Origin: Jannaschia pagri
Lineage (GTDB): Bacteria > Pseudomonadota > Alphaproteobacteria > Rhodobacterales > Rhodobacteraceae
DNA: 64,000 nucleotides
Assembly: GCF_019655435.1 (NCBI RefSeq)
Contig: NZ_BPFH01000003.1
Span: 248,001 to 312,000, forward strand
Direction of reading: 5' to 3'
Shown here: positions 287 to 18,218 of the stretch, in pieces
Layout of the letters: each line of letters opens with the position of its first letter
Position numbering within the stretch: the first letter of the stretch is position 1
Notes under the pieces: model-generated
Databases searched by the model: none
Told to the model about the DNA's origin: nothing
Seen by the model: only the letters and a program-made list of their open reading frames with translations
Translations under genes and position numbers: made by a program

Positions 287-1312
287 ATGAGCCGTCTGAT
301 CCTGCACATCGGAACCCACAAGACGGCGACCACGTCGATTCAGAAGTATTTGAACCGCAATCGGGATGTTTTGGCCGAGCGCGGCATCTTCTATCCCAGC
401 TACGATCTGATCGATCACCCGGTGCACTACGCGCACCAAGCGGCGGTAAACGCATTCTCAAATCAGAACGATGACATGACCCGCGATCAGGCCATCGCGT
501 TCTTTGCCGCCGTTCGGGCGCGGCGGGCCGACCATGACATCACCATCCTCAGCGCAGAACCCCTTTACCGTCACCTGGATCAAGCCCCGGCGCAGCCGAT
601 GCCCCAGGACCCAGAGGTGTACTGGGCGCGCCGTCGCTCCTACATCACTCAGATCGCCGAACAGGTTGGCGGGGCCGAAGTTGTCGTCGTCTTTCGCGAG
701 CAGGCCGACTACGCCCATTCCCTTTACCAAGAACACGTGAAATCGACCCGGTATCACCACAATATGCAGGTCTTCCGGCAGCGGTTCTGGTTTCATTTCG
801 ACTTCTTGGGCCAAGCCAAGGCCTGGGACGCCGTGTTCCCGGGCCTTCGCGCGCTCAGCTATGCCCACCTCTGCCGAGGCGCGGGCGTCGAAGAGAACTT
901 CGCGGCGGCGCTTGATCTTAACCTGCCAGAGGGGTTGCCGACGGCGGGGCGTCAGAACGAGGGGATGCTACCAGATTTGGTAGTCCTAAAACGTTTGTTA
1001 CACCACACCTGCCATTCGCGGGATGACATCCGTCGCCGCATGGATCAGCTGGATCACGCCATCCGTCAACACCCGGACCTGTTGGGGATGTTGCGCGCCC
1101 GCACGTTGTATCGCGATGCCAAAGGGCGGCGGGCCTTTCACAGCAGATTTGCCGCAGCGAATGCGGAACTCACACAGACGTACATCACCAACGTCCCGGA
1201 GGGAGAGGAGGCCTTTCCGCTGCGGCCCCTCCCCAATGACATAAAATGGGGTGAGGTGATGCATCCCGACCTGGCGGATTTCCTGACGCGCCGCGTGCTG
1301 GACGCGGCCTGA
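287..1312 (+). CDS. Sulfotransferase-like protein
   Basis: A 341-residue protein that opens with LILHIGTHKTATTSIQ (residues 4-19), the 5'-phosphosulfate-binding loop typical of bacterial PAPS-dependent sulfotransferases. A second element near residues 130-146 (VVVVFREQADYAHSLYQ) matches the 3'-phosphate-binding strand with the expected Arg and Ser. It would transfer sulfate from PAPS to a carbohydrate hydroxyl in the cytoplasm; the acceptor cannot be read from sequence. The next gene, a glycosyltransferase, starts 6 bp after its stop, so the two are probably co-transcribed. The ribosome-binding site is weak. Family assignment is firm; the capsule or exopolysaccharide substrate is inferred from context. 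Confidence 0.82.
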   Translation: MSRLILHIGTHKTATTSIQKYLNRNRDVLAERGIFYPSYDLIDHPVHYAHQAAVNAFSNQNDDMTRDQAIAFFAAVRARRADHDITILSAEPLYRHLDQAPAQPMPQDPEVYWARRRSYITQIAEQVGGAEVVVVFREQADYAHSLYQEHVKSTRYHHNMQVFRQRFWFHFDFLGQAKAWDAVFPGLRALSYAHLCRGAGVEENFAAALDLNLPEGLPTAGRQNEGMLPDLVVLKRLLHHTCHSRDDIRRRMDQLDHAIRQHPDLLGMLRARTLYRDAKGRRAFHSRFAAANAELTQTYITNVPEGEEAFPLRPLPNDIKWGEVMHPDLADFLTRRVLDAA

Positions 1313-1318
1313 TCGCCC

Positions 1319-3895
1319 ATGGCAGGGATCTTGCACCGCATCGCCGGTCTGTATGGTCGATACGTTCTGGCGCACGATCTGGTCTCGGGCCGCACCGGTC
1401 CATTGCGCAACGGCGCAGGCAAAACGCTCGGAGCTGTTGAGACCGCAGAGCGGGACAGTGGGCGGTTGCGCGTGGCCGGGAAGATGCATCCCGGAGAACC
1501 GCCCGTCGTCCGAGTGACGCTGGCCCACGGCGCGCGCAGTGTCTCCGTCGACCGACCAAGTGGTTTGGCCCCGGATCGGCCCTTTCGCTTTGATCTAGCC
1601 CTGCCGCACCTGCCCAGTGGCGCGTCCGAGGCCGAGCCCCATGGTCCGCGCATTCACTGGCAGGACAGTGCTGGCGACACAGCAGAGATGCCGCTGCGAT
1701 TTCCCGGGCCATTGACGGTTCGGGCGGGACATCTGGCTCAGTTCACGCGCGCGGTCCTCCGTCTGATCCCAGCGTTCTGGGGTTGGGCACGGACCGGAGA
1801 TCCGAGGTTCCGCGGTGCGGTCAAACGGGGCCTGGGCCTGGACAAGGCGGCGCGGTTCCAACCCCTTGATGCGCGGGTGCTCCCGGCCTCCGCTCCTCCT
1901 AGCCTAGCGGCTGAGACGGCGATCACCATCGTCTTACCGGTCTACAATGGGTTCGACTTGCTGGACGAATGCCTGACGCGGGTCATCCGCCACACGGATC
2001 TACCCTGGCACCTGATCCTGATCGAAGACGGGTCGTCCGATGACCGGGTCAGGCCCTTTCTGCGGGACTGGACGGCTGCGGCCGATGGGCTCGAAACTGG
2101 TCACGTGACCTTGCTGGAGCCACCGGAAAACCTGGGCTTCATCGGGGCCGTGAACCTTGGGTTTGAGGCTGCTGGGATTGATGAAGGACAGGCGCCCGAC
2201 CACCCGACTGTCCTGCTGAACTCGGACGCGCTGGTGCCCGACGGTTGGGCCAGCCGCCTTGTGGCCCCACTGGTCGGGCCGGAGGCTGATCCTGCGGTCG
2301 CCTCGGTCACGGCCATGTCAAATGACGCAGAGATTACGACGGCGCCCAGTATCTGTATGGCGCGGGACTTGATGCCCGGCGATGCCGACGCGATTGATCG
2401 GGTAGCACGAACCCTGGACCCTGTCTTTTCCCAGGCGGAGATGCCCACGGGCGTGGGCTTCTGCATGGCCCTGTCCCCTCGGTTTCTGGCGCGATTGCCC
2501 CGTTTGGATGCGGCCTTTGGCCGTGGCTATGGCGAAGAGGTGGATTGGTGCCAGAAAGCCCGTGCCCTGGGCGGTCGCCACATCGGGTTGGGCAACCTTT
2601 TCGTGGAACACCGCGGCGGCAGCAGCTTCGGCTCCGAGGCGAAGGCGATGCTGATCGCGCAAAATGGGGCGCTGATCTCTCAGCGCTATCCGACCTATGA
2701 CCTGGAGGTCGCGCGCTTCATTGCGTCCGATCCGTTGACCACACCTCGCTTGGCGCTCGCCTTGGCCTGGGCAGACACCCAAGCCGCGCGGGCGGATCTT
2801 GGTCCTGTGCCGGTCTACCTAGCCCATGATCTGGGCGGCGGGGCGGATATCTGGTTGCAAACGCGGATGGCCACGGATCGGGCCCAGGGGCTGCCGTCGG
2901 TGGTCCTGCGGGTCGGCGGGCCGACGCGCTGGCAGATTGAGGTCCACGCCGGTGGGCAACCCGGCGGCCTGACGGGTGTAACCGGTGCGGCCACGGACGA
3001 CCTGGAGGCCGTGGTTCGATTGCTTGCGATCCTGTCCCAAAAGCGCCTGGTCTATTCTTGCGGCGTGGGCGACCCGGATCCCTACACCTTGCCCGATATC
3101 CTTCTGTCGCTCCGCCAACCGGGCGATCAGCTGGAGGTATTGTTCCACGACTGGCTGCCGATCTCGCCGTCCTATACGCTTTTGGATGCTGACGATGTCT
3201 ATCGCGGCCCCATCCAGAGGGATCACACGGACCTCGCACACAGGGCAAAACGACCGGACGGACAAGAGGTGTCGTTGCCAGAGTGGATGGCGGCCTGGGG
3301 GCGCCTGTTGGGGGCGGCAGACAAGATCCGGCTCTTCTCGGAGGATGGCAGAAAACACCTGATGGCGGCCTGGCCCGACCTCGCGCCGGGCTTCACCGGC
3401 ACCAAGCTGGAAGTTCGTGGCCATCCGATGCCGGATCTTGCCCGATTGGCGATACCCAACGTTGCAAACGTCACGCCTCCCCAACCGCCGGTGGTGGGCG
3501 TTATCGGCAACTTGAACCGTCATAAGGGAGCGGCGGTCGTCGCCAGTCTTGGCCGCCATATCGGGATACAAGACGGTCCCGCAGGCCTAATCGTTCTGGG
3601 TCAGGTGGACCCGGATTGTACGTTGCCGCGCCGGGTCAGCGTCCACGGAGGCTACCGCGTGGACGAGATACCGGACTTGGTGCGCCGCCATGGGATCACC
3701 CACTGGCTGGTCCCGGCGATTTGGCCCGAAACCTTCTCTTACGCCACGCACGAAGCCCTTGCCACGGGGCTGCCGGTGATTGCCTTCGACATCGGAGCCC
3801 AGGGCATGGCAGTCAGCCGCGCGGCGAACGGACTTTGCGTTCCATTGAATGCGGAGGATCCCGCCGATCAGGTGCGTCTTGCACTCCGGCCTTGA
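1319..3895 (+). CDS. Double-domain glycosyltransferase (GT2 + GT4-like)
   Basis: An 858-residue protein. Residues about 1-195 match nothing I recognise. A GT-A family 2 domain starts near residue 201 (ITIVLPVYNGFDLLDEC), with LIEDGSSDD and a DXD-like NSDALVPDGW. The C-terminal part (about 720-850) looks like a GT-B family 4 domain: GVIGNLNRHKG, then PETFSYATHEALATGLPVI, which carries the E-x7-E motif. It is therefore probably bifunctional, adding two sugars to a growing polysaccharide on the cytoplasmic side of the membrane. It sits between a sulfotransferase gene (6 bp upstream) and kpsE-like and kpsT-like export genes. The C-terminus stops soon after the E-x7-E motif, slightly short for a GT4 domain. 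Confidence 0.83.
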   Translation: MAGILHRIAGLYGRYVLAHDLVSGRTGPLRNGAGKTLGAVETAERDSGRLRVAGKMHPGEPPVVRVTLAHGARSVSVDRPSGLAPDRPFRFDLALPHLPSGASEAEPHGPRIHWQDSAGDTAEMPLRFPGPLTVRAGHLAQFTRAVLRLIPAFWGWARTGDPRFRGAVKRGLGLDKAARFQPLDARVLPASAPPSLAAETAITIVLPVYNGFDLLDECLTRVIRHTDLPWHLILIEDGSSDDRVRPFLRDWTAAADGLETGHVTLLEPPENLGFIGAVNLGFEAAGIDEGQAPDHPTVLLNSDALVPDGWASRLVAPLVGPEADPAVASVTAMSNDAEITTAPSICMARDLMPGDADAIDRVARTLDPVFSQAEMPTGVGFCMALSPRFLARLPRLDAAFGRGYGEEVDWCQKARALGGRHIGLGNLFVEHRGGSSFGSEAKAMLIAQNGALISQRYPTYDLEVARFIASDPLTTPRLALALAWADTQAARADLGPVPVYLAHDLGGGADIWLQTRMATDRAQGLPSVVLRVGGPTRWQIEVHAGGQPGGLTGVTGAATDDLEAVVRLLAILSQKRLVYSCGVGDPDPYTLPDILLSLRQPGDQLEVLFHDWLPISPSYTLLDADDVYRGPIQRDHTDLAHRAKRPDGQEVSLPEWMAAWGRLLGAADKIRLFSEDGRKHLMAAWPDLAPGFTGTKLEVRGHPMPDLARLAIPNVANVTPPQPPVVGVIGNLNRHKGAAVVASLGRHIGIQDGPAGLIVLGQVDPDCTLPRRVSVHGGYRVDEIPDLVRRHGITHWLVPAIWPETFSYATHEALATGLPVIAFDIGAQGMAVSRAANGLCVPLNAEDPADQVRLALRP

Positions 3896-4020: not shown

Positions 4021-5217
4021 ATGACAGACGCCACGGATACCCAAATGACATCAGCCGCGCCGGCCCAGCCCAGGGGACGGCATTGGTTAATCACCCTCAG
4101 TTTCCTGCTGCTGGTGGTGGCCCCCACGGCCCTGTGCGCCTGGTACCTCTGGGAACGGGCGGCGGATCGCTATGTGTCCACGGCAGGGTTTTCTGTCCGC
4201 ACCGAAGAAGCGGGATCGGCCATCGAGAGCTTGGCTGGGATCACCGGGCTTTCCGGCTCCTCTTCTTCGGACACCGATATCCTGTATGATTTCATCCAGA
4301 GCCAACAGCTTGTCCGCCAAGTCCAAGACAGCCTCGACCTTCGGACGATCTGGAGTAAGGTCCCCCCGGACCAGGACCCGATCTATGCCTATCACCCACC
4401 CGGAACCATTGAGGACCTGACGGCCTATTGGCGGCGCATGGTGAAGGTATACAACATCGGCTCCACCGGGTTGCTAGAACTCCGGGTGCAGGCCTTCGAC
4501 CCCGACGATGCCCAGCGCATCGCACAGGAAATCCAGGCGCGCAGTTCCGATATGATCAATGAGTTGTCGGCCATCGCCCGCGAGGACGCGACGCGCTATG
4601 CCCGCGATGAATTGGACGGCGCGGTGGAGCGGCTGAAAGTCGCCCGTCAGGCCATCACCCGATTCCGCAACCGCACACAGATCGTGGACCCCCAGGCCTC
4701 GATCCAAAGCCAGATGGGTATCCTATCATCCTTGCAGGGCGAATTGGCCCAGACACTGATCGACCTGGATATTCTGGTGCAAACGGCACCGGCGAACGAC
4801 CCACGGATCGTGCAGTTGAAGCGCCGGATCGAAACCATCGAGAGCCGCATCGCCGAGGAGCGGAGCAAACTGGGCCTTGGGAGCAGGCCCCGTAACGATG
4901 AGGGTCAAGATGAAGGAGGCACCGCGGAAGGCGGGGAACTGGACGCCTTTGCCGATCTTGTTGGGGAATACGAAAGCCTGATCGTCGATCTCAACTTTGC
5001 CGAACAATCCTATACCGCTGCGCTTGCTGGCTACGATTCAAGCCTGGCGGAAAGTCGGCGCCAAAGCCGCTACCTCGCGGCGCACGTGCGCCCCACCCTG
5101 GCGGAGTCGGCGGCCCACCCGGAACGGACCAAGCTGATCAGCCTTGTCGCGCTGTTCAGCTTCCTCGCGTGGGGGATCATCGTTTTGGCGGCCTATGCCC
5201 TGCGGGATCGCCGCTAG
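4021..5217 (+). CDS. kpsE: Capsule polysaccharide export inner-membrane protein, KpsE/CtrB-like
   Basis: A 398-residue protein with the polysaccharide co-polymerase layout: an N-terminal membrane segment (about 20-43, LITLSFLLLVVAPTALCAWY), a long periplasmic part with a helical, probably coiled-coil stretch (about 195-300), and a C-terminal membrane segment (about 370-392). The DRYVSTAGFSVRTEE region after the first membrane segment is typical of KpsE/BexC/CtrB proteins. These proteins link the inner-membrane ABC exporter to the outer-membrane channel. The gene is 125 bp downstream of the glycosyltransferase and 22 bp upstream of the ATPase gene, as expected in a group 2/3 capsule export cluster. 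No outer-membrane KpsD-type partner is present in the window. Confidence 0.85.
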   Translation: MTDATDTQMTSAAPAQPRGRHWLITLSFLLLVVAPTALCAWYLWERAADRYVSTAGFSVRTEEAGSAIESLAGITGLSGSSSSDTDILYDFIQSQQLVRQVQDSLDLRTIWSKVPPDQDPIYAYHPPGTIEDLTAYWRRMVKVYNIGSTGLLELRVQAFDPDDAQRIAQEIQARSSDMINELSAIAREDATRYARDELDGAVERLKVARQAITRFRNRTQIVDPQASIQSQMGILSSLQGELAQTLIDLDILVQTAPANDPRIVQLKRRIETIESRIAEERSKLGLGSRPRNDEGQDEGGTAEGGELDAFADLVGEYESLIVDLNFAEQSYTAALAGYDSSLAESRRQSRYLAAHVRPTLAESAAHPERTKLISLVALFSFLAWGIIVLAAYALRDRR

Positions 5218-5239: not shown

Positions 5240-6865
5240 ATGATCGTTCTGCGCAATCTGACCAAGACGTTCACCGTCAATGGCCGCAGCAACACAGTTG
5301 CCGACAACTTGAACGCAGTCTTCCCAACGGGCGTTTCCGTGGGCCTGTTGGGCCGGAACGGCGCTGGAAAATCAACCCTGCTTCGGTTGATCGCAGGGAC
5401 CTCAACCCCAAGCTGGGGCGAGGTGTTGTCAACGGGGTCGGTTTCATTCCCCGTTGGTCTGGCCGATTCCATGCATGCGGATCTGACCGGCGCGCAAAAC
5501 ACGCGCTTTGTGGCGCGCATCTATGGCGCGGATACAGAATCCTTGATGGACTGGGTCGAGGATTTCGCGGAACTGGGGGAACATTTCCACCTGCCGGTGC
5601 GGTCCTATTCCTCGGGGATGAAGGGTCGCCTGTCGTTCGGGATCAACATGGGCTTGGCCTTCGACACCTATCTGGTGGACGAGGTCACCGCCGTGGGCGA
5701 CGCGGCCTTCCGCCGGAAATCGAGCGAAGTCTTTCGCGGGCGGATGGAGACCTCCGGCGCGATCTTCGTCAGCCACTCCATGGGGCAAATTCGCGATCTG
5801 TGCACGGCAGGCGCCATGCTGGAGAACGGCAAGCTCCAGTACTACGAAGAGGTCGATGAGGCGATCGACCGATACCTGTTTAGTCTGGACCCCGACCGGA
5901 CCCGCGAAGCGGCTGTGCCCGCCCGCGACGACAGTATGGTCCGCCTGCCCGAGGGTGTGCGCATGCTCTACGGGCTTGGCTTGCCGGTGACCCATGCGGG
6001 CTGGGTTGGTGATTGTCTGCGCCGCCATCGCCAGTGCCTTTGCCCGGATGTGACGGAGCCCCACTACTTCGACACCCGCGCGGGTCGGAACCGCCGTCTT
6101 CTGCGCGACCGAAACGCGGCCCTGCGCAAGCTGTCGGCCCAACAAGAAAAGGCAAAGGGCGCAGATCGGTCCAAATTGCTCGGCAAGATCAGTGACACGG
6201 CGGCTCTTTTGCAAATCCATGCTGCGCCGAGCGAGGGGGAAACCCGTCACGAAGCCTATCTGGATTTCATGCAGCGCCACCGGCGCAGCCAGCCATTGTT
6301 GTGCGATCTAACACCTGCCTACGCCCGCCTCCGACAGCTTGATTTTTCCGACATGGCTGGGCTTGGCGATGGCGTGTTCCTTCTGGTGCTAAGGGATCCA
6401 GTGGATCGTTATTGGGAGGCCCTATGCCTCGATATGCCTGAGGAGAAACGGACAGCCGATACCTGTGCGCGGCAGCTTCGCCAGTTGCTTGCCGAAGGCC
6501 CGGAGGAAATCGTCGGGCTTAGACCGGATTCGGACTATGCGCGGTTGATGTCGCGGCTACTGCCCGAGGTCCCAAAGGACCGGATCGTCACGCTGTTTCA
6601 CGAACATCTCGACGACCCGGAGGCGCGCTTGGTGGAGTTGGAACGGATGACGACCACCCTGGGGCTGGATGTCCTGCCCGACGACCGTCGCCCGACGTTT
6701 CCGGACCGGCCCGATGTTCCAAAGCTGCCTGGGGAGCTCGGTGAAAAGCTGATGGAAATGCTGCTGCCGCAGTATGAGGCGATCTATGCCGAATACGGGT
6801 CCGACGTGCCCTTGGCTTGGCGCTGGCGTCCGGAACATTTGAACGAGTCCCTACCGGCAGCCTGA
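5240..6865 (+). CDS. KpsT-type polysaccharide export ATPase fused to a sulfotransferase-like domain
   Basis: A 541-residue protein in two parts. Residues 1-about 220 form a KpsT/Wzt-like ABC ATPase: Walker A GRNGAGKS (38-45), signature SSGMKGR (124-130), Walker B YLVDEV (144-149) and H-loop SHS (178-180). KpsT proteins normally end here. Residues about 240-530 resemble a sulfotransferase: LYGLGLPVTHAGWVGDCLRR (243-262), HYFDTRAGRN, LCDLTPAY and FLLVLRDPVDRYWEAL (380-395). The first of these keeps the position of the PAPS loop but lacks the usual Lys-Thr-Thr core, so catalysis is uncertain. The gene follows kpsE; a cognate permease (kpsM-like) lies at 17.3 kb. The ATPase call is firm, the C-terminal domain likely. 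Confidence 0.8.
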   Translation: MIVLRNLTKTFTVNGRSNTVADNLNAVFPTGVSVGLLGRNGAGKSTLLRLIAGTSTPSWGEVLSTGSVSFPVGLADSMHADLTGAQNTRFVARIYGADTESLMDWVEDFAELGEHFHLPVRSYSSGMKGRLSFGINMGLAFDTYLVDEVTAVGDAAFRRKSSEVFRGRMETSGAIFVSHSMGQIRDLCTAGAMLENGKLQYYEEVDEAIDRYLFSLDPDRTREAAVPARDDSMVRLPEGVRMLYGLGLPVTHAGWVGDCLRRHRQCLCPDVTEPHYFDTRAGRNRRLLRDRNAALRKLSAQQEKAKGADRSKLLGKISDTAALLQIHAAPSEGETRHEAYLDFMQRHRRSQPLLCDLTPAYARLRQLDFSDMAGLGDGVFLLVLRDPVDRYWEALCLDMPEEKRTADTCARQLRQLLAEGPEEIVGLRPDSDYARLMSRLLPEVPKDRIVTLFHEHLDDPEARLVELERMTTTLGLDVLPDDRRPTFPDRPDVPKLPGELGEKLMEMLLPQYEAIYAEYGSDVPLAWRWRPEHLNESLPAA

Positions 6866-7013: not shown

Positions 7014-10000
7014 TTATACCAGCAAGAAGTCAGCTGACGTCAGTTCCGGATTGCCATCCAAGGTGGCGATCAACGTCTGACCGCCAGCAGCGTTGGCGTT
7101 CAGGTCCACGAACAACCGACCCGTCGCCTGATCGTAGATCAGATAGTCGTTTGCGTCCTGGGCCGCCGTGCCTTGGCGCAGGACACCGTTCGGCAAAGCG
7201 CCCGTCGGGAACACACCATCTGGGACATCAATCAGGATGCGATCCTGTCCCGACTGGAAGTCCGTGATCCGGTCGGCCCCGCGCAGCGCAGCGCCGGGGA
7301 CTTCGAAGACGAAAGCGTCGTTGCCTGCGCCACCCGTCAAGGTGTCTTCGCCCGCACCGCCAGCGATCGTGTCGTTCCCGGCACCACCGTCAATCCGGTC
7401 GTTTTGGGCGCCGCCTTCGACCTCATCTGCGCCATCACCGCCGGACACCGTCCCACCGATCCGGTCGCCAAGCGTCAAGGCATTGCCACTGTCCGACAGG
7501 TTAATGATCCGCGCGCCGTCGACGATCAGCCCACCACGGTCGGTGATGCCGCTGGCGTTCAGGCGCATGTCGCCGGTATCCCCGATCATCACGGTGATCT
7601 CATCGTTGTCCGACTGGGTTACCGCCTCTTGACCGATTTCCAGAGCCAAGTTGCGAGAGATGGTGAAGTCGAAGATATCCACGCCCGACAGATCGCCGAT
7701 CTCTTCCACGATGCCAGAGACGTTCCCAACCTCGACCACGAGGGTATCGAGGCCCGTCCCCATGATCGCTTCGAAGTTGGTCGCGTTCAGCTGCGACGCA
7801 AAGATCGTCACAGTGTCTGCAACCTGCGTGCCCAGCACGAACCTGTCTTCGGCATTCACGCGGTCCACGAGACCCTCAACGTTCGGGTCGCTCAAGAACT
7901 CGACATTGGACGGTCGCGCCAAACGGGCATCCACATCCCGCAGGCGGATCGACGCATCGACCCCACGGCCCATGTCCAGAACCACGTCGCCTTGTTCGAA
8001 GGATACCTTGAGCTGCCCGATATTGGTGAAGGCCGTCCCTTGCAGAACCAACACGTCGCCACCGGCGCCCATCTCAAAGTCGCGGATCTGGTCGTTGCCG
8101 TCACCGACACGATACACGAAGCGGTCGCTCGCCCCGCCACCGGTCAGGTCGTCATCGCCCAGCCCGCCTGTCAGCGTGTCTTGGCCGGAGCCACCGAACA
8201 ACTGGTCGCTGCCGATGCCGGTGTTGAGGTTGCCGCCCCGTTCGTCGGCCGTCACGATGTCAGGCCGCCCACCCGATTGCAGGGTGCGGAAGGTGACGTC
8301 GTTATCCTCGATCGCTTCTTCGGGGTGCTCCCCAGGAACCCCTGGGTTGACCGATTGCCACTGCGGATCCTCCCGCGACGGGACGTCGTTGCGGTACTCT
8401 TGGATCATCGTTTCCACGCGGACGATGTTGTCGGCGTCCGGGCTGCCGTGGAAGTTGATATCGCGATTGGTCTCGGTGACGTTGATCTCATTGTAGTGTT
8501 CCGCGTGGAACGATGAGAACAGAACCGAGTGGCGCGCATCTTCCGACGTGACATTGTTCAGCGTCGTCTTGAACGCCTCGACCAGGTAGTAGTGGTAGCC
8601 GTTGGACGGGCCCTTGTTGTGCGCGCCCTCGGCGACCAGATCCTCGCCCGTTACGTCATAGGTACGCTGGAAACGGAAGGCGTGGCTGGCCGGGTCTTCA
8701 ATCGTCACGCGGCTGATGGAGGAGTTCTCGACAGCATCCAATTCGATGGCGGCAATCGACTTCCATTCATCGGGAAGCGTGTTGTTGAAGTTGTTGGGAT
8801 CCGCCGTCTCGCCCCATTGGCCGGTGACCGTGAAGTCAGACAGAACGACGTTTTCCAGGTAGGTGGATTGCCGCACCGTGGCGACGCCCGCATCGAAGTC
8901 GAAAGGCAGCGGCTCCCGCACGGTGATGACGTTGCCATCAATTTCCGTGATGCGGGAGCGGAACTCACGCAGCCAGATGTCCTCCGGGCGATCAGGTTCC
9001 GGCTGGATCCAGTCGGTATTGCCACTCTCGCGGATAAAGTCAGCGTCGTTTTCCTGATGGATGAACAGCAGGTCGCCGATGCCCAACTCGTGATCTTCGG
9101 ACAGCGTGATCTGAAAGGTGCCCTTCTCTGCGTTCACCGCGATAGGGCTGAGGTCGGTGAAGAGCTCCTGACCGTCCGGCTGAACCAGGATGGTCTGCCC
9201 CGCGTTCGCGTCGGTTTGCGCCGCACGAAGGATCGTCTGACCTTGGCCTGCCCCCTTGATGGTGATGTCCGAACGGTCGATCCGCAGCGTCTCGGTGATG
9301 TCGTAGGTCCCGGCCGCCAGGTTGATCGTCGACCCGCTCGGCGCGCCATTGATCAAGTTCTGAAGCTCTTCCAGCGGCGTGCCATTGGTCACATTGAAGA
9401 TGCGCGCGTCCTGGCCGGGCAACACGAAGTCGCGGATATCGATGTTGGGGCCTGCCGCGCCCTTCAGGGTCAAGTCCAGGTCGGTGGCGGTCAGGCGCAC
9501 GTCGCGCCCGTCGATCGAGACATTGACGTCCGATGCGGCCCGGATGCTGTCGATCTGGGACAGGTCCACACGCTCCAGGAAGCTGAGCGTGTCGAGGTCG
9601 GTGATTGTGACGGGGCCTGCGTCCTTTGCGATGATGAACAGGTCATCGCCCCCACCACCGGTCATGGTCGTGGCGCCCAGGTCCGCGATCAATTCGTCGC
9701 GTCCATCGCCACCATCGAGCGTGTCATTCCCCTCGCCGCCCGTCAGCGTGTCATTGCCGCCGTCGCCGCGAATGCTGTCGTCACCGCCAGCACCGGCCAG
9801 CATGTCATCGAGCAAGCCACCCTCGATCCGGTCATCACGGCGCCCGCCAGTGATCTTGTCAGACCGGGACCCGCCCGTGACATTCCCCGCATAATCATCG
9901 GAAATCGTGACGTTCTGACCCGTCACATTGCGGAGCAGGATGTTGCCCGTCCCCTCCAACGTGATGACACCATCCCCGAAAGAGGCATCCACGATCATAT

Positions 10001-12230
10001 CGTTGAGGCCGTTCTTAATCAGGAGGGTTCCGTCGTCGGATTGCGCGACCATCCGCGGGTCGATGCGCACCGCCAGATCGCCCGTCGTTGCGGTCATGTC
10101 GATGATGTCGATCCCGTCCATGCCGCGCAGCAGGTCGAACGACAACTGACGATCCGCGCCCGTAATGCGCAGGACGTCATCACCTGCCCCGCCAACGAAC
10201 ACGTCGTCACCGGACAGGTTCGAGAACTGACCACTGAGTTCAAAGATGTCCGCTTCGTCGCCACCGGCAAAGACGTCGTTGCCCGCTGTGAACAGGAAGT
10301 CAGCTGGCGTCGAGAGGTTCGTCGCAAAGGTCACGAAGTCTTCGGCACCGGGCAGGACCAGGTTATCCACGGTCAGGCCAGCGGCCGTCGCTTCGGGCAG
10401 ACGCAGGGTTGTCCCCTGGCCCAAGTCGAACACGCCAAACCCGTCAACAACCGTATAGTTCAGGTCCAGGACGAAATTCGGCCCCATGGGGCGGAGGTCG
10501 ATCCGCTCATAGGTGTTGGTCAGCGCAAAGTCCGTGATCGTCAGCGTCTCGCCCGGGGTGATCACGAAGGTATCGGCGTTGGCCCCGCCCGTGACGGTGT
10601 TGCTGCCCAGCCCTCCGGTCAGAACGTCCGACCCGGTGCCGCCGTTGAGGCTGTCGTCCCCGGTGCCGCCATTAAGCCGGTCATGGCTTGCGCCGCCCTC
10701 AAGGGTGTCGTCGCCCGCATCGCCGTTCAGCACGTCTCGCGCGGCGCCACCCGATAGGCTGTCGTCGCCACCCTCGCCCGAAACGGTATCCGCACCGGCG
10801 CCGCCCTCCAAAGTGTCGTTGCGCGCGCCACCCGTCACTTTGTCAGCCCGGGATCCACCAATCACGGATCCCGCGTACTGGTCGGACAGGGTCAGGTTCT
10901 GGTTCACCTCATTGCGCAGGGTAATCGGGCCCGTCCCTTCAACGGTCACGACGCCATCACCAAATGCGGTGTCAACGATCACAGCGTTTCCGCCGGTCTT
11001 GATGAGAAGCGTTCCGGCGTCCGACTGCGCCACCATTGCGGCGCTGATCGAGATACCCAGGTTGCCGCTGGCCCCTGCAAGGTCGATCACGTCGATGCCG
11101 GACATGCCGGTCAGCAGACCTTCGGAAAGCTCCCGATCTTCGCCCCAGATGCGCAGTGTATCCACGTCAGCGCCGCCATCGAAGAAATCCGTCCCGGCCA
11201 GTTTGGAGAATTGCCCGATCACCTCAAATGTCTGGCGACCGGCCCCACCGGTAAAGGTGTCATCGGCATCGGTAAAGCGGAAGTCGGCCATGGGCGCCAA
11301 CCCCTGGGCCTTGGACACGAAATCCCCATCGGACGGAAGGATGAAGCTATCGCGCGTGATCGCAGCCGCCGCGCTGGCCGACAGGCGGAGTGTTGTGCCC
11401 GCCCCGAGGGACAGAACCTGAAAGGCGCCGTCCGTCGTGAAGTTCAGGTTGAACGCCAGGTCGGATCCAAGGGCGCGCAGGTCAATTCGCTCAAAGGTGT
11501 TCGTGGCTTCGAAGTCGGTGATGGTCAGCGTCTCACCCGCTGTCACCACAAAGGTGTCGGAGCCAAAGCCACCTGTCGCGGTGTTTTGCCCAGCCCCACC
11601 TTCAAGGACATCGTCTTCGGAGCCGCCGTCCAGGTCATCATTGCCCGTGCCGCCGTTCAGGACGTCATAGCCGCCGTTGCCGGTCAGCGTGTCCGCGCCC
11701 GCACCGCCGTCGACCATATCGGCATTTCCGCCGCCGCGCAGAACGTCGTTGCCCGTGCCACCTTCGATCGTATCGCTGCCAGATCCGCCATCGACCCGAC
11801 CGTTCACGCCATCCGCGACGGTGACCCACTGCAACTCACCATCAGAGAGCGACACCTGGCCCGTGCCTTCGATCACGAAGCCTTCGCGCCCACCCGCCTC
11901 GCGCAGGTCGAGTGTCAGGGGATCCCCATCGAACCGAACCAGCAGAGTGCCATCGTCGGACTGCGACAACAGGAACTCCAGCAGTTTGATTGTCACCGCA
12001 GGGGGGCTAGTGACATCAATCACATCAAGTCCACTGAAGCCGCCAAGACGATCCGTTCCGAGGCCCAGCGCTGACGTCCGCTCCGTGACCAGCGTGTCCG
12101 TACCGGCACCGAGGGTGATGATGTCACCCGCTTCTAGGTTTGCGACGTTGGAGGGAAATTCGACGATGTCGTTGCCGGTCGTTCCGGTAAACGTATCAAG
12201 ACCGGTAGTCAGTCGGAAAGTTGCGGACAT
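7014..12230 (-). CDS. Giant RTX calcium-binding protein with a parallel beta-helix core
   Basis: A 1738-residue acidic protein with no N-terminal signal peptide. Blocks of RTX nonapeptides (GGxGxDxLx) occur near residues 147-215, 463-545, 790-850, 1340-1376 and 1590-1635. A module of about 320 residues is repeated three times in the N-terminal half, and a shorter fourth copy lies near 1466-1590; each copy carries GLDVID- and QSDDGTLL-like motifs. Residues about 945-1310 look like a pectate-lyase-type right-handed beta-helix (STINLAAGTYDI, SDITIKGAGQGQTILRAA). The C-terminus (ITDFQSGQDRI, then a hydrophobic FLLV end) fits a type I secretion signal. AAGGA lies 7 bp before the ATG. A role as an extracellular polysaccharide-binding or polysaccharide-modifying protein is inferred from fold and locus. 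Confidence 0.85.
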   Translation of the reverse strand: MSATFRLTTGLDTFTGTTGNDIVEFPSNVANLEAGDIITLGAGTDTLVTERTSALGLGTDRLGGFSGLDVIDVTSPPAVTIKLLEFLLSQSDDGTLLVRFDGDPLTLDLREAGGREGFVIEGTGQVSLSDGELQWVTVADGVNGRVDGGSGSDTIEGGTGNDVLRGGGNADMVDGGAGADTLTGNGGYDVLNGGTGNDDLDGGSEDDVLEGGAGQNTATGGFGSDTFVVTAGETLTITDFEATNTFERIDLRALGSDLAFNLNFTTDGAFQVLSLGAGTTLRLSASAAAAITRDSFILPSDGDFVSKAQGLAPMADFRFTDADDTFTGGAGRQTFEVIGQFSKLAGTDFFDGGADVDTLRIWGEDRELSEGLLTGMSGIDVIDLAGASGNLGISISAAMVAQSDAGTLLIKTGGNAVIVDTAFGDGVVTVEGTGPITLRNEVNQNLTLSDQYAGSVIGGSRADKVTGGARNDTLEGGAGADTVSGEGGDDSLSGGAARDVLNGDAGDDTLEGGASHDRLNGGTGDDSLNGGTGSDVLTGGLGSNTVTGGANADTFVITPGETLTITDFALTNTYERIDLRPMGPNFVLDLNYTVVDGFGVFDLGQGTTLRLPEATAAGLTVDNLVLPGAEDFVTFATNLSTPADFLFTAGNDVFAGGDEADIFELSGQFSNLSGDDVFVGGAGDDVLRITGADRQLSFDLLRGMDGIDIIDMTATTGDLAVRIDPRMVAQSDDGTLLIKNGLNDMIVDASFGDGVITLEGTGNILLRNVTGQNVTISDDYAGNVTGGSRSDKITGGRRDDRIEGGLLDDMLAGAGGDDSIRGDGGNDTLTGGEGNDTLDGGDGRDELIADLGATTMTGGGGDDLFIIAKDAGPVTITDLDTLSFLERVDLSQIDSIRAASDVNVSIDGRDVRLTATDLDLTLKGAAGPNIDIRDFVLPGQDARIFNVTNGTPLEELQNLINGAPSGSTINLAAGTYDITETLRIDRSDITIKGAGQGQTILRAAQTDANAGQTILVQPDGQELFTDLSPIAVNAEKGTFQITLSEDHELGIGDLLFIHQENDADFIRESGNTDWIQPEPDRPEDIWLREFRSRITEIDGNVITVREPLPFDFDAGVATVRQSTYLENVVLSDFTVTGQWGETADPNNFNNTLPDEWKSIAAIELDAVENSSISRVTIEDPASHAFRFQRTYDVTGEDLVAEGAHNKGPSNGYHYYLVEAFKTTLNNVTSEDARHSVLFSSFHAEHYNEINVTETNRDINFHGSPDADNIVRVETMIQEYRNDVPSREDPQWQSVNPGVPGEHPEEAIEDNDVTFRTLQSGGRPDIVTADERGGNLNTGIGSDQLFGGSGQDTLTGGLGDDDLTGGGASDRFVYRVGDGNDQIRDFEMGAGGDVLVLQGTAFTNIGQLKVSFEQGDVVLDMGRGVDASIRLRDVDARLARPSNVEFLSDPNVEGLVDRVNAEDRFVLGTQVADTVTIFASQLNATNFEAIMGTGLDTLVVEVGNVSGIVEEIGDLSGVDIFDFTISRNLALEIGQEAVTQSDNDEITVMIGDTGDMRLNASGITDRGGLIVDGARIINLSDSGNALTLGDRIGGTVSGGDGADEVEGGAQNDRIDGGAGNDTIAGGAGEDTLTGGAGNDAFVFEVPGAALRGADRITDFQSGQDRILIDVPDGVFPTGALPNGVLRQGTAAQDANDYLIYDQATGRLFVDLNANAAGGQTLIATLDGNPELTSADFLLV

Positions 12231-12521: not shown

Positions 12522-13412
12522 TCAGGCCGACGACTTGGGGTCCTCAGCCAGCGCAAGCAGGTACTGACCGTAGTCATTCTTGCCAAACATCTGGGCGCGC
12601 TTGGTCAACTCCGCCCGGTCGATCCACCCCTGTCCGAAAGCGATCTCGTCCGGCGACCCGGTTTGCAGACCCTGACGCCGCTCAAGCGTCCTGACGAAGT
12701 TACCCGCATCCAGCAGCGAGCCATGGGTGCCCGTGTCCAACCAGGCATATCCCCGGCCCATCCGCTCCACGGACAACAAACCCTGGGTCAGATACATTTC
12801 CAACAGGGTGGTGATTTCCAACTCACCCCGTGCCGAGGGTTTCACCGCGGCGGCGCGCTTCGGCGCGTCCCCATCGAGGAAGTACAGGCCCGTCACCGCG
12901 AAGTTTGAAGGAGGCACCTCGGGCTTTTCGATGATCTGCTTTGCTTGCCCATCGTCGTCAAAGGCGACCACACCATACCGTTCCGGATCCGCGACCCGGT
13001 ATCCAAACACGGTGCCTCCCACAGCTTGTTGATCGGCCCGGGCCAGCATCTTCGGCAAGCCATGGCCAAAGAAGATATTGTCGCCCAGCACCAAAGCCGA
13101 GGGCGCACCGGCCAGGAAGTCTTCGGCCAAGAGATAGGCTTGGGCCAGTCCGTCTGGGCTGGGCTGCTCGATATAGGTGAAGGACATGCCCCACTGGCTG
13201 CCATCGCCCAGGGTACGCTTGAATTGGTCCGCATCCTGCGGGGTCGTAATCAGCGCGACCTCACGGATCCCACCCAGCATCAGCACACTGATGGGGTAGT
13301 AAATCATCGGCTTGTCGTAGACCGGCAAAAGCTGTTTCGAGACCCCCAGCGTAATGGGGTAGAGCCGCGTGCCCGAGCCGCCGGCCAGAATGATGCCCTT
13401 GCGATTGGTCAT
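12522..13412 (-). CDS. rfbA: Glucose-1-phosphate thymidylyltransferase (RmlA)
   Basis: A 296-residue enzyme that makes dTDP-glucose from dTTP and glucose-1-phosphate, the first step of dTDP-L-rhamnose synthesis in the cytoplasm. The nucleotide-binding signature GGSGTRLYP (11-19) is followed by SKQLLPVYDKPMIYYP, the classic RmlA pattern, and the length is normal. It is the last gene of the minus-strand rfbC-rfbB-rfbD-rfbA operon and starts 27 bp after rfbD with a clear AGGAGA ribosome-binding site. The complete pathway is present, so rhamnose is probably a component of a surface polysaccharide made here. Confidence 0.96.
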   Translation of the reverse strand: MTNRKGIILAGGSGTRLYPITLGVSKQLLPVYDKPMIYYPISVLMLGGIREVALITTPQDADQFKRTLGDGSQWGMSFTYIEQPSPDGLAQAYLLAEDFLAGAPSALVLGDNIFFGHGLPKMLARADQQAVGGTVFGYRVADPERYGVVAFDDDGQAKQIIEKPEVPPSNFAVTGLYFLDGDAPKRAAAVKPSARGELEITTLLEMYLTQGLLSVERMGRGYAWLDTGTHGSLLDAGNFVRTLERRQGLQTGSPDEIAFGQGWIDRAELTKRAQMFGKNDYGQYLLALAEDPKSSA

Positions 13413-13439: not shown

Positions 13440-14285
13440 TCAGACGGTTAGGTCGCGCAAGACAGCATCGAGGCCCGCGCGCCAGTCGGGCGGGTCAATC
13501 CCAAAGTCCGTGCGCAGGGTGCTGCCGTCCATCTGGGAGTTGAGTGGGCGCGCCGCTGGGGTGGGGTAGTCCTTGGTCGGGATCCCGGTCACCGTGACGT
13601 CGCGGCCTGCGCGGGTGAATATCTCGCGGGCGAACCCTGCCCAACTCGTCGCGGGCGCCCCGCCGTAATGGTAGGTGCCGCCGCCCTGCCCCGCCCGCAT
13701 CTTAGCGGACATGGCCAGCAAGGTCGCGGCAATGTCAGCAGCCGGGGTGGGCCCCCCGATCTGGTCCTCGACCACGTTCAGCGCGTCGCGGGTCTCGGAC
13801 AGGCGCAGCATGGTTTTGACGAAGTTGTTGCCATGGGCCGAGAACACCCAAGACGTCCGCAGGATTGCATGGGCCCCGCCCGCGGCGCGCACCCCCTCCT
13901 CCCCCACCAGTTTGGAGCGGCCATAGGCGCCCAGCGGTGCGACCGGGTCGCCCACCTGCCAGGGATCGGTGCCTGTGCCGTCAAAGACGTAATCGGTAGA
14001 GACATGCAGAAACGGCACGCCCAGATCCGCGCAAGCGCGGGCCATGGCGGCGGGTGCGTCGCCGTTGACGGTCGTGGCCAGGGCCTCCTCCTCCTCAGCG
14101 CGGTCCACGGCTGTATAGGCGGCGGCGTTGATCACCACATCGGGCTTATGCGCGGCAATAGCGGCAGCGCAGGCGTCGGGGTCCGATAGGTCGGCGTCTG
14201 CACGGCTCAGGAAGGTCGCCTCGGGCGCTTGACGGCGTAGCTCCGTTGCGACTTGGCCGGTGGATCCAAAAACCAGGATGCTCAT
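13440..14285 (-). CDS. rfbD: dTDP-4-dehydrorhamnose reductase (RmlD)
   Basis: A 281-residue short-chain dehydrogenase that reduces dTDP-4-dehydrorhamnose to dTDP-L-rhamnose, the last pathway step. Visible features are the nucleotide-binding loop GSTGQV (7-12), [10 protein letters not shown] (96-105) and the catalytic YxxxK (Y121, K125, in GAYGRSK). Its ATG overlaps the rfbB stop by 4 bp (ATGA), which implies translational coupling. rfbA follows 27 bp downstream. Confidence 0.95.
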
Positions 14286-15388
14286 GCGCGGGGCTCCGCA
14301 GGTTCAGTCGCTGGATCCTTCATCGTAGGATCCTCGGACAGCGCCTTCACGCCCAGCCGTTCCCCGACCCCTTTCCGGTCCAGCAACGCCTGCCACCAAT
14401 CTGTATTGTCCAGATACCAGTCCACCGTCCGTTCCAGACCCTCTTCGACGGTGACCGAGGGCTTCCACCCAAGTTCGTCCTGGATCCGGGTCGCATCGAT
14501 GGCATAACGGGCGTCATGGCCAGGGCGGTCGGTCACGTAGGTGATCTGGTCGGCATAGGAGCCTTCGTTCTTTGGCCGCTTGGCATCGAGTATGGCGCAA
14601 AGCGCGGTCACCAACTCCAGGTTGGTACGCTCATTATCCCCACCGATGTTGTAACTGCGGCCCAGAGCCCCCCGTTGCAGCGCAACCAAAAGGGCGCGGG
14701 CATGATCCTCCACGAAGAGCCAATCGCGCACATTGGAGCCATCGCCGTAGATCGGTAGGTCCTTTCCGGCCAACGCGTTCAGAATAATCACCGGCACCAG
14801 CTTCTCGGGGAAGTGGAAAGGGCCGTAGTTGTTGGAGCAATTGGTCAGCACCACGGGCAACCCGTAGGTCTCGTGCCAGGCCCGCACCAAATGGTCCGAC
14901 GACGCCTTGGACGCCGAATAGGGCGAGCGCGGGTCGTAGGGCGTATCCTCGGTGAACTTCACCGACTTGTCGGCAGGCAGCGAGCCGAAGACCTCATCGG
15001 TGGAAATGTGATGGAACCGGAACGACGCAGGCTTGCCCTTGGCAGTCCAATAGCTGCGCGCGGCCTCCAGCATGTTGTAGGTGCCGGTGATATTGGTCTC
15101 GATGAAATCGCCCGGCCCATCTATCGACCGGTCCACGTGGCTTTCGGCGGCCAAGTGCATGACGGCGTCGGGGTGATGGGCGGTAAAAGCCGCATCCAGG
15201 GCCGCGCGGTCGCGAATATCGGCCTGGACGAAGGCGTAGTTCGGGCTGTCGGCGACACCGGCGACGTTGTCGAGACAGGCCGCATAGGTCAGCGCGTCCA
15301 AGTTCACGACGCTATGGCCATCGGCGATGGCCTGGCGCACCACGGCCGAGCCGATGAAACCGGCCCCGCCGGTGATCAAGATCTTCAT
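14282..15388 (-). CDS. rfbB: dTDP-glucose 4,6-dehydratase (RmlB)
   Basis: A 368-residue extended short-chain dehydrogenase that converts dTDP-glucose to dTDP-4-keto-6-deoxyglucose. The NAD loop is GGAGFIG (7-13); the catalytic STDEVFG lies at 129-135 and YSASK at 157-161. The ATG at 15388 was chosen because MKILITGG begins the conserved Rossmann strand; the frame stays open upstream, but that stretch has no family character. The gene starts 4 bp after the end of rfbC and overlaps rfbD by 4 bp. The C-terminus carries about 20 extra Pro/Glu-rich residues. Confidence 0.95.
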
Positions 15389-15392
15389 GGTC

Positions 15393-15947
15393 TTATCCCT
15401 GCCAGGTGAAAGGGCTGTCGAACTCAGCGAGGGCGGGGGCCTTGGCATCCTTGTCGCTCAACAACGCCTCACCCTCGAACCCCCAATCGATACCGCAACT
15501 GTCCCAGCGCACGGCGCCGTCACATTCGGGTGCGTAATAGTCCGAGCATTTGTAGACGATCTCTGTGTCAGGTTCCCGCGTGACAAAGCCGTGGAGGAAT
15601 CCGGCAGGGATCAGAAGCTGCTTGCCGTTCTCAAAGGTCAATTCTTCGCCAACCCACTGCCCGTAGGTTGGGGATCCCTTCCGGATGTCGACCGCCACGT
15701 CGAACAACGCCCCGCGACCACAGCGCACCAGTTTGGCCTGGGCGTGGGGCGGCGATTGAAAGTGCAGCCCGCGCACCGTCCCGACCGTCCGCGACAGGGA
15801 GTGGTTGTCCTGCACAAAGTCGATCTCGACGCCCTCTGATGCCAGCTTGGCCTTGTTCCAACTTTCGGAAAAGAAGCCACGCGCGTCTCCGAAACGGGGC
15901 GGCTCGATCAATTTCACACCCGGAAGGGAAGTGTCGGTAATGTGCAT
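15393..15947 (-). CDS. rfbC: dTDP-4-dehydrorhamnose 3,5-epimerase (RmlC)
   Basis: A 184-residue cupin enzyme that epimerises dTDP-4-keto-6-deoxyglucose at C3 and C5. VRGLHFQ carries the catalytic His62, followed by KLVRC and a [16 protein letters not shown] segment; [10 protein letters not shown] is the other conserved strand. Starting at 15947 gives the normal family length. The frame is open much further upstream, but that extension has no RmlC homology and runs into the divergent ugd promoter region. This is the first gene of the rfbCBDA operon. Confidence 0.95.
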
Positions 15948-16174
15948 GGACGGTCCTGAAATCTCGAGAGTACCTTGGGGCGCGCCATCTGTTGACGCTT
16001 CGCCATTGCCTAACTGGTTTTGCATCAAAGCTGAACCTGTCTTGAAACCGCCAACCCATCGCGCGCCTGTTGGCGCGGTGGCGTGAAATGTGCCATTGCC
16101 ATCCCAGCGCCGTGTCTGGTTCCCATCGGTGACGCCCCCACGATGGAAGCCAGGGCCTGATTTGGAGATACCAT
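15948..16174. promoter_or_regulatory. Divergent promoter region between rfbC and ugd
   Basis: These 227 bp separate the minus-strand rhamnose operon from the plus-strand ugd-kpsM pair, so both promoters should lie here. A TTGACG near 15991 is a possible plus-strand -35 element, but no convincing -10 follows. I see no clear operator and no gene. Confidence 0.4.
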
Positions 16175-17341
16175 ATGAAGATTGCCGTTGCCGGTATTGG
16201 ATACGTTGGCCTGTCGAATGCCGTTCTTTTGGCTCAGAAGCATGAAGTCGTGGCGCTCGACTTGGATGCCAGCCGGGTAGAGATGTTGAACGCCCGGCAA
16301 AGCCCGATCGTGGACCCGGACATCGAACGGTACTTGAGCGATATTCCGCTGACGTTGCAGGCAACCACAGATCCAGCCGAAGCCTTCGCGGGTGCAGATG
16401 TGGTGATCGTTGCCACACCGACAAACTACGACACGGTGACCAACCATTTTGACACGTCTTCGGTAGAGGCGGTTGCCCAGCAGGCCGCAGCCCAACAACC
16501 GGATGCGACCATCGTCATCAAATCCACGATACCGGTTGGCTTCGTGCAAGACTTCCGGGCGCGGACCGGCCTGACCAATGTTCTCTTCTCGCCGGAGTTT
16601 CTGCGCGAGGGGCGCGCCCTCTATGACAACCTGCACCCCAGCCGAATTGTCGTAGGGGAGCGGTCGGAGCGGGCGCAGGCTTTTGCGGACCTTCTGCTGG
16701 ACGGGGCGATTACCAAAGATGTCCCCGTTCTGCTGACGGACCCCTCCGAGGCCGAGGCCATCAAACTGTTCGCGAACACCTACCTGGCGATGCGCGTCGC
16801 CTATTTTAACGAGTTGGACAGCTACGCCCTGTCCCATGGCATGGACAGTCGGCAGATCATCGAAGGGGTCGGCTTGGACCCGCGCATTGGGGCGCACTAC
16901 AACAACCCATCCTTCGGCTATGGTGGGTATTGCCTGCCAAAGGACACGAAGCAGCTTTTGGCGAATTACTCCGAGGTTCCGCAAAACCTGATCGCTGCCA
17001 TTGTGGAAGCCAACCGCACGCGGAAGGGCTTCATCTCAGAACAAATCCTGGCGCGAGGACCAAAGGTGGTTGGCATCTATCGCCTGGTGATGAAGGCAGG
17101 ATCGGACAATTTCCGCCAAAGCTCCGTCCAGGGGATCATGAAACGGCTCAAGGCAAAGGGGATCGAGGTCTTGGTCTTTGAACCGGCCTTGGACGAAGAG
17201 ACCTTCTTCAATTCCCCGGTGCTGACGGACCTCGAAGCCTTCAAGGCGCAGTCAGACGTCATCGTGGCGAACCGCATGACCGACGATCTGCTCGACGTGG
17301 AGGCCAAAGTCTTCACACGCGATCTATTCGGGGGCGACTGA
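16175..17341 (+). CDS. ugd: UDP-glucose 6-dehydrogenase
   Basis: A 388-residue NAD-dependent enzyme that oxidises UDP-glucose to UDP-glucuronate, a capsule precursor. The Rossmann motif GIGYVG (7-12) starts the protein; SPEFLREG is the substrate-binding loop, and [14 protein letters not shown] carries the nucleophilic cysteine at residue 253, the position used by the Escherichia coli enzyme, which has the same length as I recall it. It diverges from the rhamnose operon and is followed after 1 bp by a KpsM-type permease. With galU at 56.8 kb, the window supplies both steps from glucose-1-phosphate to UDP-glucuronate. Confidence 0.95.
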
Positions 17342-17342
17342 C

Positions 17343-18218
17343 GTGACAGCGACTCCGGATCCCATGACGTCAGAGACCGCCGGGCCCTCACCAGGTCCCG
17401 CGCCGATCAGCGCGACCGAGGCGGCGGCCCTGCGTCCCGTGCGCAAGACCGTGCGGTTGAGTGGTATCCGGACAATCGTCGCTTTGATCCTGCGGGAAAT
17501 GACCTCCAGCTACGGTCGGTCCCCTGGCGGCTATGCCTGGATGATCCTGGAGCCGCTGCTGGGCATCCTGTTCCTCACGGTCCTGTTCGTGATGATCGGG
17601 CTGCGTAGCCCGCAGCTGGGCACGAACTTCGCGATCTTCTTCGCCACGGGAATCCTGCCGTTCAATATGTACATGGAGGTGAGCAACAAGACCGCTCAAT
17701 CCATCAACTTCTCAAAGGCTCTGCTGTCGTACCCGCGTGTGACCTATGTGGACGCCATTCTGGCGCGAATCACACTCACGGTCCTGACGCAGCTTCTGGT
17801 GGCGGTCCTGCTGATCAGCGCGATCCGTGGTTTGTTCGAGACGCGAACGGTCGTACAAATGGAACCAATCCTGCTGTCCTATGCCATGGCCATCGTCTTG
17901 GGCGCAGGTGTGGGGATGTTGAATTGCTTTCTCATCACCCAATTCCCGATCTGGCAACAGGTCTGGGGCATTGCCAACCGACCTTTGTTTTTCCTGTCGG
18001 GGATCATCCTGATCCTCGAAGGGCTGCCCGAGCAGTATAAGGAATACTTCCTTTGGAACCCCTTAATCCATGTGACCGCACAGATGCGGTCCGGATTCTA
18101 CGTCGGGTATGACGTGGTCTATGTGAACCCGGCCTATGTGTTTGGGGTGGGGCTCGTTCTCGGCCTTGTTGGCATGGTGTTCCTGCACCGCTACCACCGA
18201 GACATGCTGGAGTTGTAG
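17343..18218 (+). CDS. kpsM: Capsule polysaccharide ABC exporter permease, KpsM-like
   Basis: A 291-residue ABC-2 type membrane protein. After a Pro/Ala-rich cytoplasmic N-terminus (about 1-35) come about six membrane segments; GGYAWMILEPLLGILFLTVL and the C-terminal WNPLIHVTAQMRSGFY are typical of KpsM/BexB permeases. It would form the inner-membrane channel with a KpsT-type ATPase, and the fused ATPase at 5.2-6.9 kb is the obvious candidate partner. It starts with GTG 1 bp after the ugd stop, so it is probably co-transcribed with ugd. It ends just before a convergent gene. Confidence 0.88.
   Translation: MTATPDPMTSETAGPSPGPAPISATEAAALRPVRKTVRLSGIRTIVALILREMTSSYGRSPGGYAWMILEPLLGILFLTVLFVMIGLRSPQLGTNFAIFFATGILPFNMYMEVSNKTAQSINFSKALLSYPRVTYVDAILARITLTVLTQLLVAVLLISAIRGLFETRTVVQMEPILLSYAMAIVLGAGVGMLNCFLITQFPIWQQVWGIANRPLFFLSGIILILEGLPEQYKEYFLWNPLIHVTAQMRSGFYVGYDVVYVNPAYVFGVGLVLGLVGMVFLHRYHRDMLEL

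Follow-up and report, generated by a model that had tools for sequence, protein, structure and literature searches.

Genes of the capsule locus and the fused frame

The window analysed here is a stretch of 64,000 nucleotides from the genome of Jannaschia pagri (genome G000, contig C3, positions 248001-312000). Its first part carries a row of genes on the forward strand: the gene of a putative sulfotransferase (287..1312); the gene of an 858-residue dual glycosyltransferase with Glycos_transf_2 and Glycos_transf_1 domains (1319..3895); kpsE of the BexC/CtrB/KpsE family (4021..5217; 195.7 bits, below the cut-off of 437.5); and, with kpsE just upstream, a frame of 541 codons encoding a KpsT-type ABC ATPase joined to an apparently inactive sulfotransferase-like domain (5240..6865). 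Further on, the reverse strand contains rmlA/rfbA (12522..13412), rmlD/rfbD (13440..14285), rmlB/rfbB (14282..15448), and a frame that comprises rmlC/rfbC in its residues 162-334 (15393..16424), the true start probably being inside this frame. They are followed on the forward strand by a nucleotide sugar dehydrogenase gene of the UDP-glucose 6-dehydrogenase type (16175..17341) and the gene of a KpsM-like permease (17343..18218; ABC2_membrane, 50.1 bits; 90 bits with the KpsM model, which has a cut-off of 300).

Judging by this gene content, we deal with an ABC-dependent capsule locus: KpsE and a KpsM-like permease, both scoring below the NCBIfam cut-offs, are encoded with the fused KpsT, and matches to Capsule_synth (KpsC/KpsS type) are found on another contig (C1:808789-812949). 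As the locus comprises the rml genes and a gene of the UDP-glucose 6-dehydrogenase type, rhamnose and glucuronic acid are probably among the capsule sugars.

The fused gene is a single open frame with an ATG start and no internal stop codons. Residues 1-215 (5240..5884) form the KpsT nucleotide-binding domain, with the Walker A motif GRNGAGKST starting at residue 38, the signature SSGMKGR at 124, Walker B YLVDEV at 144 and the H-loop VSHS at 177. The closest solved chain for residues 1-217 is 8tsi_A (E 3.1e-60), an entry named "ABC transporter ATP-binding protein", which we take to be KpsT. The ATPase is followed by a poorly conserved linker, residues 216-235 (5885..5944; 25-75% pairwise amino acid identity between the four fused copies considered below), and then by the sulfotransferase-like domain of approximately 300 residues (residues 236-541, 5945..6862). 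Thus, the preliminary description of this frame as a KpsT-type ATPase with all ABC motifs holds, and the sequence landmarks quoted there for its second half, namely HYFD, LCDLTPAY and FLLVLRDPVDRYWEAL, are all present.

The genome also encodes a second, unfused KpsT-like ATPase (C1:38946-39590; 32-34% identical), in a locus that has a weakly KpsE-like frame as well (22%, E 5e-7). About 32 kb before the window (L094:1480-2358, near position 215600 of contig C3) there is a Sulfotransfer_3 gene scoring over the cut-off, with the loop GLPRSGST, next to a gene whose product appears to be secreted and rich in repeats.

Distribution of the fusion

The fusion was found in four genomes: in the window, in an uncultured Rhodobacteraceae genome (G793, locus L009; 73% identical protein), in another genome of the same genus (G010, locus L002; 59%) and in Wenxinia marina (G069, locus L010; 56%), the latter gene, seen in loci L010, L011, L040 and L088, being counted once. 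The L009 and L010 copies were found by a search of genome contigs. Walker A, the signature, Walker B and the H-loop are present in all four proteins, and the dual glycosyltransferase is conserved in all four loci. The 1738-residue RTX-repeat protein encoded convergently with the fused gene on the opposite strand of the window (7014-12230) has counterparts at this place in L009 and L103 (G010), as well as in L010, where about 3.5 kb intervene; it may be secreted and act as a partner of the polysaccharide.

A close KpsT is present in 242 of the 394 genomes of the family, and among the matches listed only two genomes have one spanning the C-terminal domain (G000, residues 1-541; G069, residues 2-528), all other listed matches (E to about 5e-79) ending by residue 254. 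In the inspected loci with an unfused KpsT (n = 32) the frame always ends 2-15 residues past the matched ATPase region. In the genus (n = 20), the fusion is seen in G000 and G010, and the third match, in G012, is a gene on its own, 293 codons long if counted from the first ATG. The class-level search (n = 385) yielded five matches, fused only in the window, and that of 292 relatives yielded 15 matches, where the fusions were the three already known (G000, G010, G069). Beyond these three, no KpsT fusion was seen among the 20 same-genus, 394 family, 101 Wenxinia-centred, 385 class-level and 292 relative genomes; these sets overlap, and the count is exclusive of some long open frames in the family, such as those on G069:C1, G393:C33 and G336:C41. 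A close KpsT is also found in 235 plasmid records, which stand outside the fusion count. The only plasmid match of the domain is a hydrolase-sulfotransferase; the domain was not found in viral contigs, and a search of PHROGs gave no match. Thus, the fusion is rare.

We also considered whether the join could be a sequencing or assembly artefact between two genes, as the preliminary description had allowed. This can be dismissed with near certainty, since the same join recurs in L009, L002 and L010, that is, in four separate assemblies whose proteins are 56-73% identical. The preliminary description knew of no system with this fusion, and our search agrees with it: we know of no earlier case of a captured sulfotransferase serving as a reader on KpsT, and a KpsT-sulfotransferase fusion is not described in the open-licence literature searched, a scope to which the 2019 survey of carbohydrate-binding modules of ABC transporters does not belong. 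In PMC11641403 the genes are separate.

Ancestry of the C-terminal domain and its donor site

Taken as a single sequence, the C-terminal half gives a weak call of "sulfotransferase-like", as its score with the Pfam family Sulfotransfer_3 is below the curated cut-off of 27 (17.7 bits for the whole protein, 19.1 bits for the domain alone), and phmmer with the domain alone yielded no convincing match to solved structures (best E 1.1, unrelated). The family search with the domain gave matches in 141 of the 394 genomes at E<=1e-4. We aligned the four fused domains (alignment A1) and, separately, 30 relatives without the KpsT fusion (alignment A3). The latter are the 28 best loci ranking after the KpsT fusions in the family search (L012-L039), to which we added another copy from L027 and the protein of the same-genus L003; in three cases (L012, L014, L015) a hydrolase-like domain is attached. 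A 117-residue piece in L071, with an intact loop, was excluded from A3 and A4 as incomplete.

The comparison of the A1 and A3 profiles gave probability 100 (E 2e-55, 283 columns), and in the joint alignment 31 of the 34 members match Sulfotransfer_3 at E<=0.01. Searched against solved structures, A3 retrieves 3rnl (E 3.8e-22), 3-OST-3A1 (1t8t; 1.2e-12) and 3-OST-1 (2.3e-12). For A1 alone the best match is 1t8t, at E 0.25 only; hence, the link to known folds runs through the unfused relatives. By these profile comparisons, the C-terminal domain is of sulfotransferase ancestry, as the preliminary description had suggested for the second half of the protein.

The changes in the fused copies are situated mainly where the donor would be expected. 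Here and below, the names "5' PAPS loop" and "3' site" are assigned to positions from general sulfotransferase biology, and R-x7-S is taken by us to be the 3'-phosphate Arg/Ser motif. In the unfused relatives (n = 30) Gly-Thr of the loop and Ser of the 3' site are present without exception, and the loop Lys is present in 28, the other two having Arg. In the fused proteins, the loop GLPVTHAGWV (residues 247-256, 5978..6007) has the Lys250, Gly252 and Thr253 positions replaced in all four copies, so that the preliminary observation of a PAPS loop lacking Lys and Thr-Thr is borne out by the sequence and extends to the other copies. In the 3'-phosphate strand RDPVDRYWE (residues 385-393, 6392..6418), Arg385 is kept and the Ser of the relatives, eight residues further on, is Glu393 in all four copies.

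Among 39 columns common to at least 27 of the 30 relatives, 22 are kept, eight are mixed and nine are replaced across the fused copies. Replaced in all four are A248, K250, G252 and T253 of the 5' loop, K272, S393 of the 3' site, R396 (invariably Cys in the fused copies), R430 and F473. Kept in all four are G247, W255, H275, F277, D278, Y340, D356, T358, P359, Y361 and M372, as well as R385, D386, P387, R390, W392, Y433, E455, Q511, Y512, P524 and W527. Thus, HYFD (residues 275-278, 6062..6073) is kept in all copies, with the preceding Glu273 in three of them and Met at this place in L002, and in DLTPAY (residues 356-361, 6305..6322) D, T, P and Y are kept throughout. The four fused domains also have invariant cysteines at 259, 266, 355 and 396; in the 30 aligned relatives, the positions corresponding to C259 and C396 are never Cys.

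The residues of 3-OST-3 important for activity include Lys162, Arg166, Glu184, His186 and Asp189, according to PMC8341778. In the 3-OST alignment obtained via the A3 search, Lys162 corresponds to position 250, Glu184 to 273, His186 to 275 and Asp189 to 278, and by this alignment E273 would be the counterpart of the catalytic Glu184. The losses are thus concentrated where PAPS would bind, and the loss of the donor site would be expected to abolish sulfate transfer.

The origin of the domain was traced on two trees, both rooted at the midpoint. The domain tree (34 rows) unites the fused copies in a single clade (100/100), set on a long stem of 1.09 changes per column, and places them in a 99/95 group together with L012, L013, L014, L015, L017 and L016. 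For the first five of these, kpsT is close by on the same contig; for L016 it was not seen within the 1.5 kb of sequence examined. The fused copies are united in the KpsT tree (39 rows) as well (100/99); the 99/95 group to which they belong has ten members and also contains the proteins of G180, G375, G182, G084, G277 and G330; in G180, G375, G182 and G084 a related sulfotransferase is encoded near kpsT. KpsT of G024 and G054 fall outside this group, although they too have a sulfotransferase nearby, that of G054 being a 153-aa frame. The latter (L071:2217-2567), 3' of kpsT and with an intact loop, is perhaps a broken gene.

In two genomes the end of kpsT shares 4 bp with the start of an intact sulfotransferase gene (G180, 755-1465 and 1462-2382 in L013; G375, 815-1471 and 1468-2385 in reversed L017). 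Such an overlapping pair is likely to represent the state before the fusion, and a frame change at the overlap could have joined the two genes. Since the donor site is intact in the 30 aligned relatives, the direction of change, on trees with midpoint roots only, is read as from an active to a degenerate domain.

The gene at 287-1312 is a candidate for the enzyme modifying the chain, encoded in the same cluster as the fusion. Its protein begins MSRLILHIGTHKTATTS; the loop GTHKTATTS and R-x7-S (REQADYAHS) are intact in all four homologues. We assign it as a putative sulfotransferase only weakly: the profile of the four sequences matches 3rnl at E 8e-4, one of the four homologues matches Pfam (0.0086), and hhalign against A3 gives probability 8 for the single protein, aligned over the loop only, and 39 for the four-sequence profile, over another stretch than the loop. 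At E<=1e-10, a homologue was found in each of the four genomes with the fusion (G000, G010, G069, G793) and in none of seven others, a difference that is suggestive only, as the seven are a chosen set (five genomes with an intact sulfotransferase near kpsT and two of the same genus) and the four loci are related. In all four genomes, it shares the contig with the fusion. It is directly upstream of the dual glycosyltransferase gene in the window, G010 and G069; G010 and G069 have a further 2-3.4 kb between the glycosyltransferase and kpsE, which the window lacks. Its distance from the fusion in G793 is about 21 kb, so that it does not adjoin the fused gene there. No homologue was found in the plasmid records at 1e-10.

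Known exporters and the possible role of the fused domain

The locus resembles the KpsMT-KpsE system (PDB 8tsi, PMC11041684) in the ATPase domain, the adjoining kpsE, the KpsM-like gene in the window and Capsule_synth elsewhere in the genome. It differs from it in KpsT itself, as the solved chain has 234 residues, whereas here 300 more follow the ATPase. In PMC11041684, KpsMT is described as having limited chain specificity, with recognition proposed for the lipid/Kdo part, and translocation is suggested to start with the lipid and not with the terminal sugar.

An additional domain that follows the nucleotide-binding domain directly on its C-terminal side, with a proposed glycan-reading role, is a feature of Wzt (A. 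aeolicus, E. coli O9a, Klebsiella O12), and in this layout, that is, an export ATPase followed by a glycan-related domain, the analogy drawn in the preliminary description stands. The C-terminal domain of A. aeolicus Wzt is reported to bind the capped glycan, with glycan binding modulating the ATPase activity (PMC9445017), and for Wzt exporters this domain is described as binding the modified chain end (PMC11231755). By ancestry the two domains differ: that of Wzt is a jelly-roll dimer (PMC9445017), whereas the one studied here is of sulfotransferase ancestry and is carried by KpsT. With the full-length Wzt chains (7k2t, 8dku/8dou), the alignment of the fused protein is confined to residues 23-200, and, judging by sequence, the fused domain would not belong to the carbohydrate-binding modules of jelly-roll fold. 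Besides, if translocation starts with the lipid, Wzt is not a ready model for recognition of the distal chain end; should this hold here, the domain would contact the chain or its proximal part, or come into play ahead of loading, rather than read the far end.

With the heparan sulfate 3-O-sulfotransferases (1t8t, 1zrh) and the bacterial 3rnl the domain shares homology via the unfused family, the HYFD/HFFD motif and the 3'-site Arg, and differs from them in the absence of the PAPS-loop Lys, Gly-Thr and the 3' Ser from all fused copies. Related sulfotransferase domains also occur in the hydrolase-sulfotransferases encoded in polysaccharide clusters of Rhodobacteraceae (L012, L014, L015; WP_015063277.1). 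In the three loci, the sulfotransferase part lies on the kpsT contig, about 1-4 kb away; these proteins differ from the fusion in that the donor loop is intact and the partner is an alpha/beta-hydrolase-like domain and not KpsT. As we read the sequences, the combination of an alpha/beta-hydrolase-like domain with an intact sulfotransferase of this family is found in L012:700-2385, L014, L015 and L086:8221-10737, and L014 and L015 have a second sulfotransferase-like part after the hydrolase-sulfotransferase. WP_015063277.1, from plasmid pSD118 of Sulfitobacter guttiformis, is annotated with such a hydrolase part, and its gene is clustered with rfbCBDA and the gene of a nucleotide sugar dehydrogenase.

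Given the two trees and the overlapping gene pairs, we suggest that the fused domain descends from an active carbohydrate sulfotransferase that was once encoded just downstream of kpsT. After what would have been a single fusion, the PAPS site was lost, the scaffold and the HYFD and TPxY residues being kept. The domain most likely no longer transfers sulfate; most likely, it holds the capsule chain, or the enzyme finishing this chain, against the exporter, so that chain maturation would be coupled to ATP-driven export. If the polymer is sulfated, sulfation would be performed in trans by the 287-1312 protein, which has an intact donor loop and co-occurs with the fusion. We give this account as a whole about an even chance. 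In the best reading of the data, the domain would be an inactive sulfotransferase turned into a module reading or anchoring the glycan, similar to that of Wzt in its working and different in ancestry; by analogy, it is plausible that it senses the glycan. A narrower version, which we hold tentatively and consider possible rather than probable, is a maturation checkpoint, where the donor-less sulfotransferase on KpsT would recognise either the acceptor glycan or the sulfated product of the second sulfotransferase from the same operon, and only finished chains would be exported.

The anchoring could also proceed with no contact to the glycan, if the inactive domain bound the 287-1312 protein or the dual glycosyltransferase and served as a scaffold tethering biosynthesis to the exporter. 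Inactive homologues of enzymes often are partners of active ones, and the 287-1312 gene accompanies the fusion on the same contig, as described above. Against this, the fused copies all retain HYFD, which belongs to the active-site, acceptor side in 3-OST-3 by the alignment (PMC8341778); the TPxY residues presumably belong there too. A scaffold of this kind seems to us rather unlikely. That the domain adds sulfate was one of the two roles offered in the preliminary description, and one may imagine sulfate transfer with a remodelled donor site or the transfer of a different group: Arg385, His275 and Asp278 are kept in all copies and Glu273 in three, and the last three positions are aligned to His186, Asp189 and Glu184, listed among the activity residues of 3-OST-3 in PMC8341778. 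Both halves of the PAPS site, however, are altered in every copy, with Lys and Gly-Thr of the loop lost and a Glu at 393 whose negative charge would face the 3'-phosphate; the putative base is Met in L002; and the cluster contains another sulfotransferase-like gene, whose loop is intact. A role in adding sulfate is therefore disfavoured, and we regard a still active enzyme as very unlikely.

The domain might also be a relic, a passenger in decay kept only because it leaves KpsT undisturbed. It does evolve fast: between the window and L009 the amino acid identity is 60% in the domain vs 91% in the ATPase, and in the L010-L002 comparison (NG86) the domain has dN 0.57 and dS 0.68, and the ATPase, 0.15 and 0.55, so that dN/dS is about 0.84 and 0.26, respectively, in a method that ignores codon bias and for which several other pairs are saturated. 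Such rates fit weak constraint as well as changing specificity. A relic is argued against by the four open frames and by 75 positions that are invariant over the fused copies, down to about 40% identity; 18 positions invariant in these copies are rare in the 30 relatives, some of which may be explained by shared ancestry alone. On balance, we consider mere decay improbable and prefer the inactivated domain that holds the chain, or its finishing enzyme, at KpsT.

What is new here is an ABC exporter of polysaccharides whose C-terminal accessory domain has an ancestry different from that of the known ones, and relatives in which kpsT overlaps an intact sulfotransferase gene illustrate the likely stage preceding the fusion. 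An inactivated sulfotransferase may here be reused as a binding module. If the checkpoint reading is true, the exporter would be an independently evolved KpsMT counterpart of the jelly-roll Wzt. This bears on the way a capsule system tells finished chains from unfinished or modified ones, to which an inactive glycan-modifying enzyme on the exporter would be a testable answer.
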